From: Bacteroidota bacterium | GTDB lineage: Bacteria; Bacteroidota; Ignavibacteria; Kapaibacteriales; UBA961 | Length of the DNA stretch: 36,628 bases | Assembly: GCA_020852855.1 (NCBI GenBank) | Contig: JADZAA010000071.1 | Span: forward strand, 1-36,628 | Direction of reading: 5' to 3' | Shown here: positions 15,199-36,198 of the stretch, piece by piece | How positions within the stretch are numbered: the first letter of the stretch is position 1 | Layout: the number at the start of each line of letters is the position of its first letter | Position numbers and translations under genes: made by a program | The notes under the pieces: generated by a model | Seen by the model: the letters and a program-made list of their open reading frames with translations, nothing else | Told to the model about the DNA's origin: nothing | Database searches by the model: none

Positions 15199-15516
15199 AG
15201 GTTTAGCTTTAGGATGCCGGAATATTTCACGCCGTTTTCACAAGTTGTGTCAGCGGCGCATTTTTCAATTGTAAACTACGATTTTTTTACTGTAAAATCG
15301 CTTATTGACCGCATCTGATTATAAAAATACCGGCGACTTGGCTTACCTTGCGAATATTCGAAATCGAAAACAGTTGCGCGGTTTTTTGAGGAGTACCGAA
15401 AATACGATAGTACCTAATATTTTTTTTGGTATTTTACGGTAAAATTGCGGAATTACAGTGCATTTTTTGTATTGTCAATCGCCGGCTTTCACTTACAAGA
15501 ATTTTATTACAGCCGA
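15199..15516. other. Divergent intergenic region between the TonB receptor and MBL-fold genes
   Basis: This 318-base region must hold promoters for both directions. An AT-rich hairpin (CGATTTT 15279-15285 with AAAATCG 15294-15300, 8-base loop) lies on the receptor side. TACCTTGC and TAAAATTGC strings on the plus strand resemble, but do not match, TAnnTTTG. A TTG-started extension of the MBL frame from 15445 reads through part of it and is not credible as coding. Confidence 0.4.
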
Positions 15517-16362
15517 ATGTATATCAAATTGCCCGACGGTAAATTTCGACTGACCAATGACGGAACATTGGAATTATTTTTCATCGGCACCGGATTTGCC
15601 TTTGCCCGTACTCTGTTCCAGACGAATTTTTTTATAGTCAAAGGCGATACTCATATTCTCGTGGACTTCGGTTCAACAGGGCCTAATGCGCTGGCGGCAG
15701 TAGGAATAGAGCCAACCGACATTAGTGTATTCCTACCGACGCACAGCCATTGCGACCATATCGGCGGTGTGGAATTTTTGAGTTTGCTTAATCGATACGT
15801 AGGCGTTTCAGTTCTCAAAAAGCCGAAACTGCGTATGATTATTAACGAGGAATATCAAGATATTCTTTGGAATATGTCGTTGCGCGGCGGTATGGAGTTC
15901 AACGAAGTCAGTGCCTATGGAAACAGACTTACTTTCGATGATTATTACGATGTTGCGCGCCCCACGCTCAAGACAACTTCGCCGCGTGAAACATGGGAGA
16001 TAGACTTTAACGGTATTAAAATCGAGATTTTTCGCGTTAATCATATACCCGGTAATTCTACTTCTGCCGGTACGGCATTTATTACATACGGTCTGTTTAT
16101 AGATAACCGCATCATGATTTCAGGTGATACGAAATTCGATATGTCGCTTATCGAACTTTACGCCGACCGTGCCGAATATATTTTTCATGATGCGAGCTTA
16201 TCGCCTAATCCGGTTCATGCAAGCTTAAGCGAGCTGCGCGGCCTGCCGGCCGATATAAAAAAGAAAATGTTTTTGATGCATTATTCTGACGATTGGCGCA
16301 ATTTTCCCGTAGATGATTTTGCCGGTTATGCGCGGCAAGGGGAGCGTTATATTTTCGACTGA
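15517..16362 (+). CDS. MBL-fold metal-dependent hydrolase
   Basis: The 281-residue product has the metallo-beta-lactamase fold signature THSHCDHIGG, giving metal ligands His76, His78, Asp80 and His81. It also has later ligand candidates in NHIPG, ISGDTKFD and LMHYSDD. This arrangement is like the RNase Z / phosphodiesterase / PqsE-type broad group (Lactamase_B_2) rather than true beta-lactamases. No signal peptide is seen, so it is probably cytoplasmic. I cannot name a substrate. The frame is open back to a TTG at 15445, but the ATG at 15517 gives the expected short lead-in (MYIKLPDGKFRLT) before the first beta-strand LELFFIGTG. It is divergent from the TonB receptor and precedes motB by 164 bases. 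Confidence 0.85.
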   Translation: MYIKLPDGKFRLTNDGTLELFFIGTGFAFARTLFQTNFFIVKGDTHILVDFGSTGPNALAAVGIEPTDISVFLPTHSHCDHIGGVEFLSLLNRYVGVSVLKKPKLRMIINEEYQDILWNMSLRGGMEFNEVSAYGNRLTFDDYYDVARPTLKTTSPRETWEIDFNGIKIEIFRVNHIPGNSTSAGTAFITYGLFIDNRIMISGDTKFDMSLIELYADRAEYIFHDASLSPNPVHASLSELRGLPADIKKKMFLMHYSDDWRNFPVDDFAGYARQGERYIFD

Positions 16363-18215: not shown

Positions 18216-18458
18216 ATGCTGGTGCTGTCGAGGAAAGCGGGCGAAGTGATAAATATCGGAAACAATATCCGAATCACCATTATCGGCTGCGACCGGGGTG
18301 TCGCACGAGTCGGAATCGATGCACCCAAAGATATACCTGTGCATCGTAAAGAAATATACGACAAAATAGTTGAAATGAATAAAAATGCGGCTAAAACCAA
18401 TGCCGAAGCTTTGCGTGTGGCAATGGAACAAACCTTTATACGAAAAGCCGAAAAATAA
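18216..18458 (+). CDS. csrA: CsrA, post-transcriptional regulator
   Basis: CsrA is a small dimeric RNA-binding protein that binds GGA motifs in mRNA leaders, classically blocking translation of flagellin in organisms with FliW. The 80-residue product begins MLVLSRKAGEVINIG and contains IRITIIG, ARVGIDAPKDIPVHRKEIY, the standard core, followed by a C-terminal helix extended beyond the 61 residues of the E. coli protein. Such extensions occur in FliW-containing lineages, where they help form the FliW-binding surface. It sits between fliW and a receiver-domain gene; its stop TAA overlaps an ATG of the next frame (TAATG at 18456). Confidence 0.97.
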   Translation: MLVLSRKAGEVINIGNNIRITIIGCDRGVARVGIDAPKDIPVHRKEIYDKIVEMNKNAAKTNAEALRVAMEQTFIRKAEK

Positions 18459-18502
18459 TGCGTTGCCACGCATCAACCGATTATTTTTGGATAGAGATAT
18501 TT

Positions 18503-19090
18503 ATGCAGGAACTGCCGATTCTCATTGTAGACGACGACACATGGATGCAGCGTATACTTGCCAAAATAGTGGCGAGTTACGGATTTACACCCTATTTTGC
18601 AAGTAATGGTTTCGACGGAGTGGCTATGGCAATAGACCTTCGTCCGGTAGTTGTATTGTTAGACGTACTTATGCCCGAATTATCCGGACATCAGACGCTT
18701 CATCTGCTTAAACGTATTGGCCCCACCAAAGATATTCCCGTGGTTATGGTATCGTCTGTATCGGACGTTGGAAACATCAGCCTGTCTATCAAAGCGGGGG
18801 CATCGGGATTTATTGGCAAACCGTTCACACGGGCTACTATTTTCGATAAAATTCGCGATATACTCGGCAAAGATATTATAGCACAGGCAGCACTCCGCAC
18901 CGAAGCAGGCGAAGCCGCACCTCTTCCGGAAGCCGAGGCCGTTGCCGAATCTTTTGCCATAGCCGATGCGGGCGGTGCAGTAAAGCAAAAGTCCGCAGCC
19001 GCCGCACCGCAAGCAATCAGCCAGCATTACAAAGAAGATGATCGTAAGAATATAGAGGCGATTAAAGACTTATTGCAAAAACGAAAATAA
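18503..19090 (+). CDS. Stand-alone response-regulator receiver protein
   Basis: The product (196 residues from ATG 18503) is a CheY-like receiver domain (about 5-122): acidic pocket Asp10-Asp12, phospho-acceptor Asp54 in VLLDVLMPE, switch Ser84/Ser85 and Lys106 in GFIGKPF. After it comes an Ala/Glu/Pro-rich linker and a short charged C-terminal helix (HYKEDDRKNIEAIKDLLQK), with no DNA-binding or enzymatic output domain. It may therefore act by protein contact, like CheY, or as part of a phosphorelay. The frame can be read from an ATG at 18458 overlapping the csrA stop; that would couple translation but add fifteen residues before the first beta-strand that do not look like a receiver. Position after csrA hints at motility control. 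No kinase is adjacent. Confidence 0.88.
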   Translation: MQELPILIVDDDTWMQRILAKIVASYGFTPYFASNGFDGVAMAIDLRPVVVLLDVLMPELSGHQTLHLLKRIGPTKDIPVVMVSSVSDVGNISLSIKAGASGFIGKPFTRATIFDKIRDILGKDIIAQAALRTEAGEAAPLPEAEAVAESFAIADAGGAVKQKSAAAAPQAISQHYKEDDRKNIEAIKDLLQKRK

Positions 19091-19121: not shown

Positions 19122-20858
19122 TTAACCGGAATATTCTTCGATTTTCCGCGCAAAATCATGTACTGCGCGGCTACGGTGGCTGATTGCATTTTTTTCGTCG
19201 GGCGACATCTCGGCAAATGACATGGCGTACCCGTCGGGAATAAACAGCGAGTCGTAACCGAATCCGCCGTCGCCTGCTTCCGCCTGCGCTATATTACCCG
19301 CACAGATTCCTTCTGCAAAAAACGTTCGGACACCGTCCGTAAAGCATAGAATCGAGCGGAATCGTGCGGCACGATTATTCGTATTTTTAAGTTTTGCAAG
19401 CAGTTTGGCGCGATTGTCCGAATCTTGCGCCGCTACGCCAGCATAGCGTGCCGAGCGAACGCCCGGTGCACCGCCGAGTGCCTCTACTTCCAATCCCGTA
19501 TCGTCTGCAAGCGACGGCAATCCCGTCCGTCGAAAAACTTCCTGCACTTTTATGTAGGCATTTTCTTCGAGTGTTTTTCCCGTTTCCTCTATCGTTAAAC
19601 CAGCGATGCCGGCCTCGTCAAGCGTCAGTAATTTTACATTGAAAGCAGTGATAATATCATATAAAACAGCCGATATTTCCGTGATTTTATGCCGATTATT
19701 AGTAGACAAAACAATAGTTTGAGTAACTGAGCTTTTCATTTTATGAACTGAAAATTGTGCGGCTGCCGGACGAACTATTTCTACAGCACGCACGAAGTCT
19801 GCGCAAAAATCAGATACTCCGGTACGCGAATAGTGCCCTAAATGACCTATACGAACAACGTTATTGCGTAATCGGTCTTGTCCGTTTGCAATTAGAATGC
19901 CGAATGTATCGCGCAGAACAGATACAAGACGCTCGCCGAAATCGGGGGTGCGAACGACGGTCAATGCGTTCGACGGAATATCGGGAAGCAACGAAAGTCC
20001 GGTTTTTTCGACGCTACTGCGAATCATTGCCGCCAAATTCTCGTGCCGTTCCGCTATATTCGGCAAAGTTTCGCGCCGCATCATATCGAGTGCCGCGTCA
20101 AGCCCCGACAGAATATTTACGGCCGGTGTAAATACGGTTAAGCCTTCATTAAGCGATTTTTTTGCGGCGTGAAGGTCGAAATACATAGTAGGCGCACGGT
20201 TAGGCCGAGCGGCCGCTTGCCACGCTCTTTCGCTAAGTGCTACGAATGCAAGTCCGGGCGGACACATAAATGCTTTTTGCGAAGAGACTACGGCTACGTC
20301 AAGTTGCCATTCGTCCATCGGTATATCATAAACGCCTATACTTGTAATACAGTCGGCGCATACGAGCGCACGGCTGCCAGCTTGCTTAACAGCTTGGCAA
20401 ATGCCTCTTAAATCGGACAAAGCACCGGTTGAAGTTTCGCTATGCACAATCCATACGGCATCGGCATCAAATCCTTTCAATACAGACGCAACTTCTTCCG
20501 GTTGAACAACCTGCCCCCAAGTACGTGAAATCCCCCTGACTTCGAATCCAAAATATTCGAGCATAGTTTTCCATCGTGCCGCGAATCGCCCGTTATTTAT
20601 AACGACTACTTTGTCGCCATTGCGATGAATTGCCCGCATTGCCGCCTCTATTCCGCCGGTACCGGAGCAGGTTATAGGCAGAACGGGTTGCTTAGTTCGA
20701 AAAATGTCTTGTAAACCATCGGCTATGCGGCGCATCATAACGCGGAACTCCGTACTTTTATGGTGCGGCTGCGGCGCAGCAACGGCACTCATAACGTCGA
20801 GCGGAACAGGAGTAGGACCGGGTGTGAAAATTCTAAGTGAATTACGGTTTTCTATCAT
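19122..20858 (-). CDS. Fused class V aminotransferase and RdgB/HAM1 nucleotide pyrophosphatase
   Basis: One 578-residue frame joins two enzymes. Residues 1-370 form a PLP-dependent class V aminotransferase of the alanine-glyoxylate/serine-pyruvate type: FTPGPTPVP start, SGTGGIEAAM, cofactor lysine Lys195 in SSQKAFMCPPGLAF, VRIGHLGH near the end. Residues 374-578 are a full RdgB/HAM1 dITP/XTP pyrophosphatase, which clears non-canonical purine nucleotides: STNNRHKITEI, SLADDTGLEVEALGGAPG, RSARYAG, GGFGYDSLFIP, FAEMSPDEKNAISHRSRA. The second domain starts exactly with a methionine, Met374. At the junction the other two frames contain TAA or TGA beside this ATG, so a one-base insertion or deletion could have merged two adjacent genes, either in evolution or by sequencing error. 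Both halves look complete. Confidence 0.85.
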   Translation of the reverse strand: MIENRNSLRIFTPGPTPVPLDVMSAVAAPQPHHKSTEFRVMMRRIADGLQDIFRTKQPVLPITCSGTGGIEAAMRAIHRNGDKVVVINNGRFAARWKTMLEYFGFEVRGISRTWGQVVQPEEVASVLKGFDADAVWIVHSETSTGALSDLRGICQAVKQAGSRALVCADCITSIGVYDIPMDEWQLDVAVVSSQKAFMCPPGLAFVALSERAWQAAARPNRAPTMYFDLHAAKKSLNEGLTVFTPAVNILSGLDAALDMMRRETLPNIAERHENLAAMIRSSVEKTGLSLLPDIPSNALTVVRTPDFGERLVSVLRDTFGILIANGQDRLRNNVVRIGHLGHYSRTGVSDFCADFVRAVEIVRPAAAQFSVHKMKSSVTQTIVLSTNNRHKITEISAVLYDIITAFNVKLLTLDEAGIAGLTIEETGKTLEENAYIKVQEVFRRTGLPSLADDTGLEVEALGGAPGVRSARYAGVAAQDSDNRAKLLAKLKNTNNRAARFRSILCFTDGVRTFFAEGICAGNIAQAEAGDGGFGYDSLFIPDGYAMSFAEMSPDEKNAISHRSRAVHDFARKIEEYSG

Positions 20859-21003
20859 CTGAACAACTTATGTTTTATACAGTTAGAACCTGTGTATGAT
20901 TTGCTTCGTCAATAAAAAACGCAGCAAACAAATGTTTTGATTAGAGCATCTGAACTTGTATAATCCGCATTTTAAGACTAGATTCGCCGAGCGATTCCGG
21001 AAC

Positions 21004-21021
21004 TTGTGCCGTCAGGCACAA
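21004..21021. repeat. Small palindrome TTGTGCC-GTCA-GGCACAA
   Basis: A perfect 7-base-pair inverted repeat with loop GTCA, followed by ATATCGGCAAC. Similar short hairpins followed by ATCGGxA strings occur as dispersed, REP-like elements in some Bacteroidota genomes, from general recollection. It could not be compared with other copies here. Confidence 0.55.
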
Positions 21022-21066
21022 TATATCGGCAACAAAAGAAAGCGTCTTTTGATAGTGTCCCATACA

Positions 21067-21151
21067 GGACACAACATATTTTTCCGGTTTCATATTTGCT
21101 TTTCTTTGCGCCTCTGCGAGAAATGGACACAATATTCTCCGGTTTCATATT
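21067..21151. repeat. Imperfect direct repeat, two copies of about 28 bases
   Basis: Copy 1 (21067-21096) and copy 2 (21125-21151) share GGACACAA, then TATT(T/C)T, then CCGGTTTCATATT. They are 58 bases apart start to start. Together with nearby hairpins they suggest the remnant of a repeated intergenic element. Confidence 0.65.
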
Positions 21152-21164
21152 CCTGTCGATATAC

Positions 21165-21179
21165 AATCCCTGCGGGATT
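21165..21179. repeat. Small palindrome AATCCC-TGC-GGGATT
   Basis: A 6-base-pair perfect inverted repeat with a three-base loop, 14 bases past the second direct-repeat copy, followed about 30 bases on by ATATATCGGTAGAG. Probably part of the same repeat element as the hairpin at 21004. Confidence 0.5.
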
Positions 21180-21515
21180 TCAAGAAAAACAGCTGTGTCG
21201 CGCAGGTACGAGATATATCGGTAGAGATAATTTACCGCAATGATAAAAAGTAAAGTATGAAAAGGTCGCCAAACATTTTCAAATTATGGCTGTAAAAATA
21301 ATCCTAAGCAAGTTCCCAGGCAAAATTATACTGTTTTTTCCCGAAAAGCATAAATTTATCGCGAAAGTACGGTGTTGTAAATGTTTTGTTGTTATTATTA
21401 TCCGTTTTGGCATACAGCCTTTACGTGTTCAGATTACAATCGGTCTGTCATAAAAACAATTCTGCCAAAAAAGTCTTAAGCCGTCGCTTCTTTTTCCGAG
21501 ATGAAATATTTGCCG

Positions 21516-21523
21516 TATATTTG
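21516..21523 (+). promoter_or_regulatory. Candidate -7 box before the cobalamin adenosyltransferase
   Basis: TATATTTG matches TAnnTTTG and lies 73 bases before the ATG at 21597. No clear -33 TTG at the proper distance. The promoter would drive the 21597-24284 gene group. Confidence 0.3.
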
Positions 21524-21596
21524 AGTTACGGCTTGCGCCGACAGTGCTTCTTCGGCCGCACAGCGCACACTTGCCAATCAATTATAATTCCAAAGT

Positions 21597-22154
21597 ATGG
21601 CTACAAAAATATACACTAAGACAGGCGATAAAGGAACAACCGCACTTTTTGGTGGGCAGCGCGTGGCAAAACACTCGCCACGCATAGAAACCTATGGTAC
21701 GATTGACGAGCTTAATTCCGTGATAGGGCTTGCCCTTACGACGGAAATGCCGCCTGATTTGCGCGAGCATTTGTCGGCCGTATCATCTTTGCTTTTTACG
21801 GCCGGCTCGGATTTGGCCACACCGCTCGAACCTGTACCGAAATACGGTATTCCGCGCTTATCCGAGGGCGATGTAGTCCATCTCGAAGTGCTGATTGACG
21901 CTTATACGTCCGAATTGCCGCAACTGAAGAATTTTATTCTACCCGGAGGCACGCCCTGCGCCGCATACCTGCATTTGGCGCGAACAGTATGCCGCCGCGC
22001 CGAACGCTCCGCCGTTGTCGTTGCCGCCGAAGAGCATATAGGAGATATACCCGTGAAATTCCTTAATCGCTTGTCGGATTACTTGTTTACCGCTGCCCGT
22101 TACGCCAATTTCCGCGCCGGCATTACCGATACGGCTTGGCGAACTCGTCCGTAA
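21597..22154 (+). CDS. Cob(I)alamin adenosyltransferase, PduO type
   Basis: The enzyme transfers the adenosyl group of ATP to cob(I)alamin, giving coenzyme B12 for enzymes such as methylmalonyl-CoA mutase. The 185-residue product has the PduO ATP-binding motif YTKTGDKGTTALFGG (6-20), the RIETYGTIDELNSVIG segment, RRAER (133-137) and NRLSDYLF (157-164), all family hallmarks. Length is typical. A stand-alone copy without cobalamin biosynthesis genes suggests cofactor salvage or activation of imported B12, which is inference. It starts a tight plus-strand series: recO begins 57 bases later and the CNNM/CorC gene follows 30 bases after that, but the three have no obvious shared pathway. Confidence 0.93.
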   Translation: MATKIYTKTGDKGTTALFGGQRVAKHSPRIETYGTIDELNSVIGLALTTEMPPDLREHLSAVSSLLFTAGSDLATPLEPVPKYGIPRLSEGDVVHLEVLIDAYTSELPQLKNFILPGGTPCAAYLHLARTVCRRAERSAVVVAAEEHIGDIPVKFLNRLSDYLFTAARYANFRAGITDTAWRTRP

Positions 22155-35016: not shown

Positions 35017-36198
35017 ATGCGTTTCTATATTTCGATTTTTATTGTTGTGCTGTTGGCACAAGTTTCTCTTTTTGCCCAATGGGAACAAATCAAAGGACCG
35101 GATGGTGAATATTACATACTGAGTATAGTATCACAAAACAATTATCTCTATGCGGGAACAGGTAGCGGTGTATTTCGCAGTACCGATAATGGCGTAACTT
35201 GGCAAAAGAAAAGTAGTGGTCTGAATGCTCTCTCTGTCACATGTCTTCTTCAATTAGGTAACTATCAGTATGCGGGCACGTATGGTGGTGGAGTGTACCG
35301 TAGCAGCGATAATGGTGATAGTTGGCAACAGAATATCAGCGGTCTGAATTCGCTTTATGTTTATTGTCTTATTAAATTTGGCGACTATCTGTATGTAGGC
35401 ATGGATAATGGAGTGTATAGTAGTAGCGATAATGGTGATAATTGGCGGAGCAGCGGTCTGAGTACTCTGACTATTTATACCCTTCTTCAATTCGGCGACT
35501 ATCTGTATGCGGGCACGGGTAAAGGAGTGTATAGTAGCAGCGATGATGGTTATAGTTGGCAACAGAAGAATAGCGGTCTGAATACTCTGTCTTTTTATAC
35601 CCTTCTTCAATTCAGTGACTATCTGTATGCGGGCGGACAGTGGGGAGGAGTGCATCGTAGCACCGATAAAGGTGAAAATTGGCAGAGTAGTGGCATAAAT
35701 GAAACAAGCATCTATTCTATTACTCAATTCGGAGAATATCTTTATGTGAGTACATTTAATCATGGTGTATATCTTAGCACCGATAAAGGTGATAGCTGGA
35801 TTAATATTGGTTTAATGGAACAAGATGTGCGTACTCTTGTTATAAGTGGTGGTTATCTTTTTGCCGGAACATATGGCAACGGCATTTGGAAAATACCATT
35901 ATCAGCGACAAATATTGAAGAAAGAGAAGAAAATGAGAATCTCGGCTCAAGTATTCGTACATATCCGAATCCGAGCGAAGGGACATTGACCATAGAAATT
36001 GAAGATGCAAATGCAAGTAATGATATATATGATGTGATGATGTATGATATGTATGGTCGTCAGATGGGTATATATCAGATACACAATAAACAAACAATAG
36101 ATGTGAATACTCTCCCGATAGGACAATATCAGCTTAAAGTGCAAAATGCACAAACACAGAGTATATTTGTACCAAGTATTTTTAGCATTATGAGGTAA
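35017..36198 (+). CDS. Secreted seven-blade beta-propeller with type IX sorting domain
   Basis: The 393-residue product has a signal peptide (residues 1-20, cut before QWEQ), seven repeats of about 38-42 residues (30-295) and a C-terminal type IX sorting domain (about 311-393; RTYPNPSEGTLTIEI, LPIGQYQLKV). Each repeat follows YLYAGTxxGVYxSxDxGxxWxxxxSGL, the pattern of BNR/sortilin-like propellers, so a seven-bladed disc is expected. Blades 3-5 are especially alike. Proteins of this kind are usually exported to the surface and bind protein or polysaccharide; no enzyme motif is evident. ATG 35017 has AGAGG five bases upstream. Its stop lies two bases before the start of a related but broken gene, suggesting tandem duplication. 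Confidence 0.88.
   Translation: MRFYISIFIVVLLAQVSLFAQWEQIKGPDGEYYILSIVSQNNYLYAGTGSGVFRSTDNGVTWQKKSSGLNALSVTCLLQLGNYQYAGTYGGGVYRSSDNGDSWQQNISGLNSLYVYCLIKFGDYLYVGMDNGVYSSSDNGDNWRSSGLSTLTIYTLLQFGDYLYAGTGKGVYSSSDDGYSWQQKNSGLNTLSFYTLLQFSDYLYAGGQWGGVHRSTDKGENWQSSGINETSIYSITQFGEYLYVSTFNHGVYLSTDKGDSWINIGLMEQDVRTLVISGGYLFAGTYGNGIWKIPLSATNIEEREENENLGSSIRTYPNPSEGTLTIEIEDANASNDIYDVMMYDMYGRQMGIYQIHNKQTIDVNTLPIGQYQLKVQNAQTQSIFVPSIFSIMR
35455..35640 (+). repeat. Near-identical blade repeats at DNA level, 120-base period
   Basis: Within the propeller gene, TTTATACCCTTCTTCAATTC occurs at 35474-35493 and again at 35594-35613, and ACTATCTGTATGCGGGC recurs shortly after each. The exact 120-base spacing is one blade (40 codons). 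This level of identity points to recent blade duplication or gene conversion. Confidence 0.8.

Follow-up and report, generated by a model that had tools for sequence, protein, structure and literature searches.

Results

Gene content of the locus

We analyzed a 36,628-nucleotide stretch of DNA from a Bacteroidota bacterium of the order Kapaibacteriales, hereafter called the window. On the reverse strand, positions 19122–20858 form a single open frame of 578 codons, running from ATG to TAA and encoding two enzyme domains. The fused open reading frame (ORF), its parts and its flanking genes, the latter taken from the ORF list and Pfam, are as follows.

18458–19090, forward strand: response-regulator gene, convergent, downstream of the fused gene
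19122–20858, reverse strand: fused ORF of 578 residues, class V aminotransferase (AT) plus RdgB/HAM1; the sole match in the genome to either half
19770–20858, reverse strand: AT half, residues 1–363, with Pfam Aminotran_5 at residues 30–327 and the PLP lysine Lys195
19722–19772, reverse strand: linker, residues 363–379, stop-free in the fused frame, with AlphaFold2 pLDDT below 50 at residues 364–376; it holds Met374 and the out-of-frame TGA and TAA
19122–19739, reverse strand: RdgB/HAM1 half from Met374, with Pfam Ham1p_like at residues 382–570 and a TIGR00042 score above the cut-off
21597–22154, forward strand: cobalamin adenosyltransferase gene, divergent, upstream of the fused gene

The fused gene stands alone in the window, with no co-directional partner downstream. 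Between it and the divergent cobalamin adenosyltransferase gene lies an intergenic stretch of 738 bases (20859–21596) that gave no Rfam match; the sole Rfam match in the window was a tRNA at 1595–1676. Promoter and terminator scans returned 8 and 6 candidates against shuffle means of 4.0 and 3.9, respectively, and no independent evidence connected any of them with a gene start.

Two other genes of the window were recorded on the forward strand. The gene at 15445–16362, beside flagellar-type genes (MotB plug/OmpA, FliW), encodes a protein of the metallo-beta-lactamase fold; Anti-Pycsar Apyc1 is its best match in Pfam (107.4 bits against a cut-off of 50). The gene at 35017–36198 encodes a Por_Secre_tail domain (secretion-system C-terminal sorting) together with BNR/Sortilin-like matches.

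Domains of the fused reading frame

Pfam placed Aminotran_5 on residues 30–327 (74.7 bits, gathering cut-off 21.5) and Ham1p_like on residues 382–570 (197.3 bits, cut-off 22.5), and the RdgB half passed the curated cut-off of the NCBIfam RdgB/HAM1 profile TIGR00042 (167.1 against 145.35 bits). A preliminary description of this DNA had reported a 578-residue frame holding a complete class V aminotransferase with Lys195 and a complete RdgB domain; the ORF was recovered exactly, both Pfam domains scored above their cut-offs, and residue 195 is indeed a lysine, invariant in a 10-row AT alignment. From its role in the class V family, we take Lys195 to be the Schiff-base (PLP) lysine. In the 10-row alignment, AT homology in the fused frame extends as far as the position where AT proteins usually end. 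In the corresponding 10-row RdgB alignment, the RdgB half retains all invariant columns, and the motif regions TNNxHK, ADDTGLEV, PGVxSARYAG, GFGYD and SHRxxA are kept; these regions are presumably catalytic, as in the RdgB family. The best sequence matches in the PDB were 1iug for the AT half (residues 10–348, 1.2e-44) and 3tqu for the RdgB half (residues 8–198 of the 205-residue half, 4.1e-34). Because both halves are strong members of their families, a chance reading of non-coding DNA was ruled out as the source of the open frame. The computed mass of the fused chain is 63.0 kDa.

The AT half resembles class V serine/alanine-glyoxylate-type aminotransferases (PDB 1iug, 6pk1 and 2dr1), which it matches over residues 8–350 with the PLP lysine conserved; unlike these proteins, the fused ORF bears a C-terminal RdgB. 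A more specific function was considered and dropped. The AT half scored below the cut-off of every matching NCBIfam aminotransferase model, among them the equivalogs BhcA (L-aspartate--glyoxylate aminotransferase, NF045640; 241.5 against 650 bits) and 2-aminoethylphosphonate aminotransferase (TIGR03301; 147.3 against 360.8 bits), so it is named at the subfamily level and its substrate is left unnamed.

RdgB/HAM1 proteins are usually stand-alone and about 200 residues long, a property that membership of the family does not require. Compared with the family (TIGR00042; PDB 1k7k and 3tqu), the RdgB domain here is full-length, scores above the profile cut-off and keeps every invariant column, but it is not stand-alone: it follows the aminotransferase at the C-terminus with no stop between the domains, which leaves its domain membership unaffected. 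The NCBIfam model PRK02491, a nucleoside-triphosphate diphosphatase of 328 positions with its RdgB part at 120–315, likewise combines an RdgB domain with extra N-terminal sequence. It differs in that it matched residues 372–568 of the fused ORF only, at 124.8 bits against a cut-off of 301, and its N-terminal part showed no match to the aminotransferase.

An AlphaFold2 model built from a 73-row alignment had a mean pLDDT of 70.3, with block means of 78–98 in the RdgB half and 25–90 in the AT half. Residues 364–376 fell below 50, as would fit a flexible linker joining two separate domains; since much of the AT half was also poorly modelled, the low confidence of the linker says little for a flexible tether, and normal folding of the AT half is unproven by the model.

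Occurrence of the fusion

A search of its own genome revealed no second match to the AT or the RdgB half at E ≤ 0.001, so that no RdgB other than the fused gene was found in the assembly. When the entire fused protein served as query, an uninterrupted AT-RdgB chain was detected once among 123 genomes of the order (E ≤ 1e-85), once among 391 of the class and once among 395 of the phylum (both E ≤ 1e-88), in every case in its own genome. These three genome sets overlap, and in the class and phylum searches no more than three candidate sites were scored for each listed genome; a very divergent fusion could also miss the E limits. The preliminary description had proposed looking for the same two-domain architecture in related genomes, and none turned up; as no other genome of the three sets carries an uninterrupted two-domain chain, the fusion does not form a recurrent family there. 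No genome labelled as belonging to the same genus was present in the lists of relatives, order, class or phylum.

None of the 650 plasmid records with a match covered 80% of the fused query, and a pattern scan of genome contigs returned 8 loci that matched the AT half only, none with both domains. The RdgB half alone matched 153 of 159 genomes in a class sample, where RdgB frames longer than 400 residues were confined to the order among the matches listed. A literature search found nothing on an aminotransferase-RdgB fusion, on other RdgB or Ham1 fusions, or on a link between RdgB and the carboxymuconolactone decarboxylase (CMD) family described below.

Aminotransferase and rdgB genes in related genomes

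Matches were found in 60 of 61 genomes, its own included. In 31 of 60 relatives, AT and RdgB are encoded by adjacent separate genes, their matches falling on the same strand of one contig and no more than 406 bases from each other; in the other 29 they lie apart, on other contigs, or this AT is missing, and some of these cases may be contig breaks. A further relative from the same order (G069), found later, raises the adjacent pairs to 32. The preliminary description had called the two proteins usually separate and unrelated. Separate genes are what the relatives have, but in about half of those examined the genes are neighbours.

Relative to AT, the RdgB frame is shifted by one in 27 of the 32 pairs, lies in the other shifted frame in 3 (G022, G036 and G056) and is the same in 2 (G006 and G069). 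An exact 4-nt ATGA overlap occurs in 17 pairs (15 by tally, with G003 and G033 added from their junction sequences). In G006, from the same family, and in G069, the common frame of AT and RdgB is interrupted by just one stop between the genes. A 770-residue open frame tabulated for G069 was considered as a second AT-RdgB fusion and rejected: its AT (355 residues, ending in a stop) is separate from an RdgB-CMD protein of 410 residues in the same frame. G003, G006 and G009 are congeners, yet the ATGA form, one frame off, occurs in G003 and G009 and the same-frame form in G006, a difference within one genus that marks the junction as labile.

One study (PMC10666635) links 4-nt and 1-nt overlaps, which it describes as much the most frequent spacings between co-oriented genes, to translational coupling. 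The one-frame shift in 27 of 32 pairs, 17 of them with ATGA, points to coupled adjacent AT and rdgB genes as the likely ancestral state. The relatives, in which the pairs often overlap as ATGA, thus support the adjacent, coupled genes that the preliminary description had pictured.

Sequence of the junction

The Met374 codon occupies 19739–19737 on the reverse strand. In the second frame, a TGA at 19738–19736 overlaps the RdgB-side ATG as ATGA, and the third frame has a TAA at 19743–19741; these are the stops that had been noted beforehand in the other two frames by the RdgB ATG. Residue 374, given there as the first of the RdgB domain, is a methionine, but in the RdgB alignment the conserved start lies six residues downstream, at Gln380, where the shortest RdgB N-termini of relatives begin. 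The AT proteins of relatives mostly end within about 10 residues of window residue 366 (10-row alignment, in which single-row ends are loose). From these AT ends and RdgB starts, the linker was defined as residues 363–379 (51 nt).

When the 51-nt linker was shuffled, 7,352 of 20,000 shuffles contained no in-frame stop, so an open junction is no great coincidence once the frame is shared. Codon log-odds over residues 362–373 were -0.01 for the fused frame and -3.07 for the ATGA frame. The TAA frame scored -3.32 with its stop counted and about -0.35, near neutral, over the ten codons before the stop; codon usage therefore disfavours the ATGA frame only, one of the two alternatives.

Met374 also bears on how RdgB is produced. 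Its ATG is close to the RdgB start of relatives and could still initiate a free RdgB, and coupled re-initiation at overlapping gene ends is, according to PMC10666635, common in prokaryotes. RdgB might then be made mainly by ribosomes that initiate internally, at Met374 or at another start close by, with the free form doing the work and the long form a by-product. As no stop ends AT translation upstream of Met374, however, termination-reinitiation is impossible here. No observation spoke in favour of internal initiation, and we regard it as a highly doubtful main source of RdgB.

Assessment of assembly error

The assembly consists of 138 contigs with an estimated completeness of 99.22%. In the organism, the two genes could be separate and coupled, and a one-base indel error could have joined them in the assembly. 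In line with such an error, a stop occurs in each of the other two frames at the RdgB ATG, 27 of the 32 adjacent pairs have RdgB shifted by one frame, and the fusion is known from a single assembly in 138 contigs. Assembly quality was examined in 681,729 bases of its own genome (682 kb), the window included. Homology-based checking by tblastn against 287 ORFs of G003 spanned 28,287 aligned bases only and found no frameshift-like pair in them. A codon-based detector, which finds 147 of 300 artificial breaks (about 49%), gave 21 candidates in the 682 kb; a looser threshold gave 36 candidates at a sensitivity of 176/300, and a stricter first version, with a sensitivity of 34/200 on control breaks, flagged one pair. 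Eight of the 21 candidate pairs were scanned with Pfam. In three, the ORFs belonged to different families (AICARFT/IMPCHase and FAA hydrolase, HlyD and ABC transporter, ribosomal L2 and S19); in four, one ORF only had a match; in one, neither did. In none of the eight was one family split across both ORFs. The remaining 13 candidates, weak on at least one side, were dismissed by eye only. Of the other window proteins, 19 of the 20 scanned had Pfam matches.

The 682 kb thus yielded no clear case of a gene disrupted by a frameshift, at a detector sensitivity of about half. If no candidate is true, including the 13 judged by eye, this bounds indels roughly at 9e-6 per base and 5e-4 for the junction. 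The longest homopolymer in the linker is 4, the ATGA frame is worse on codons than the fused frame, and same-frame arrangements of AT and RdgB exist in relatives. The failure to find clearly broken genes, the completeness estimate, the short homopolymers and the same-frame relatives favour a real fusion, and a sequencing or assembly error is unlikely. The preliminary description had posed a choice between a true gene fusion and a one-base indel; its adjacent, coupled genes agree with the likely ancestral state, but it missed a third route, loss of the stop by substitution, for which the same-frame genes of G006 and G069 offer a starting point.

A second neighbour of RdgB

Downstream of rdgB, relatives have a second neighbouring gene, which encodes a CMD-family protein (PF02627). 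CMD was searched in 46 genomes, 45 of which had an RdgB for comparison; G045 showed neither RdgB nor CMD in the searches. Among the 45, RdgB and CMD lie in one frame in 11, are adjacent in 18 and are apart in 11 (its own genome included, some at contig ends), and 5 have no CMD. Single RdgB-CMD chains of about 400–430 residues were seen in L039, L048, L050, L054, L058, L062, L069, L073 and others (families f2 and f6, and f1 in part, with two members). Pfam confirmed PF02627 in two of these fused proteins (L039 and L073) and in the homologue from its own genome, a 216-residue ORF (L083:3276-3926; G000:C5) that, unlike that of many relatives, is on another contig than rdgB. On an RdgB tree of 33 rows, RdgB-CMD fusion maps to three changes; several deep forks are weak and losses may be included. 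The RdgB-CMD chains resemble the fused ORF in joining rdgB to a neighbour of the same cluster, but the join is at the other end of RdgB and to a CMD-family domain.

This neighbourhood raises the question of a functional link. The AT and RdgB activities might be coupled through substrate or regulation, or in a joint complex, and the fusion might have been selected for that. Genes for subunits of heteromeric complexes show an enrichment of short overlaps (PMC10666635), AT and rdgB are neighbours in 31 of 60 relatives, rdgB and CMD are adjacent or fused in 29 of 45, and fusions occur at both junctions of the cluster. On the other hand, 29 of 60 relatives, a number that includes contig breaks, do not show AT and RdgB side by side, and CMD is on another contig in its own genome. 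We know of no substrate shared by AT and RdgB, which counts against the idea. Selection for such a link appears quite improbable. The same low standing applies to a broader picture, in which a conserved AT-RdgB-CMD cluster of the order would encode cooperating products, conceivably a co-translationally assembled complex that connects the removal of deaminated purine nucleotides with amino-group metabolism; the AT-RdgB and RdgB-CMD fusions would mark the partnership, and the 578-residue protein would be a permanent version of one of its halves. Judging from gene neighbourhood, CMD may be a functional partner.

Discussion

We consider the 578-codon frame to be a real, lineage-specific fusion, with a probability of roughly three in four. 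Ancestrally, a gene for a serine/alanine-glyoxylate-type class V aminotransferase would have stood directly upstream of rdgB, with ends overlapping or nearly so and coupling probable. The separating stop codon would then have been lost, either through a substitution, once both genes were in one frame, or through a short indel in the labile junction. In G006 and G069 a lone stop divides the two in-frame genes, so stop loss alone could yield the fusion and an indel is unnecessary.

One mRNA would be translated into one protein of about 63 kDa, whose two domains would fold and act separately, connected through a linker some 17 residues long. Both activities would be kept: the N-terminal domain would be a putative PLP-dependent aminotransferase with Lys195 as the Schiff-base lysine, and the C-terminal domain a putative ITP/XTP/dITP pyrophosphohydrolase. 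The protein is a new fusion of known families, small and lineage-specific, and not a new kind of system.

If real, the fused gene would be a clean example of overlapping bacterial genes becoming a multidomain enzyme, and possible intermediates, namely pairs one frame apart, in-frame pairs divided by a stop and the fused gene, would be visible among its relatives. The conserved aminotransferase-RdgB-CMD neighbourhood, for which our searches returned no explanation, is a candidate functional link.
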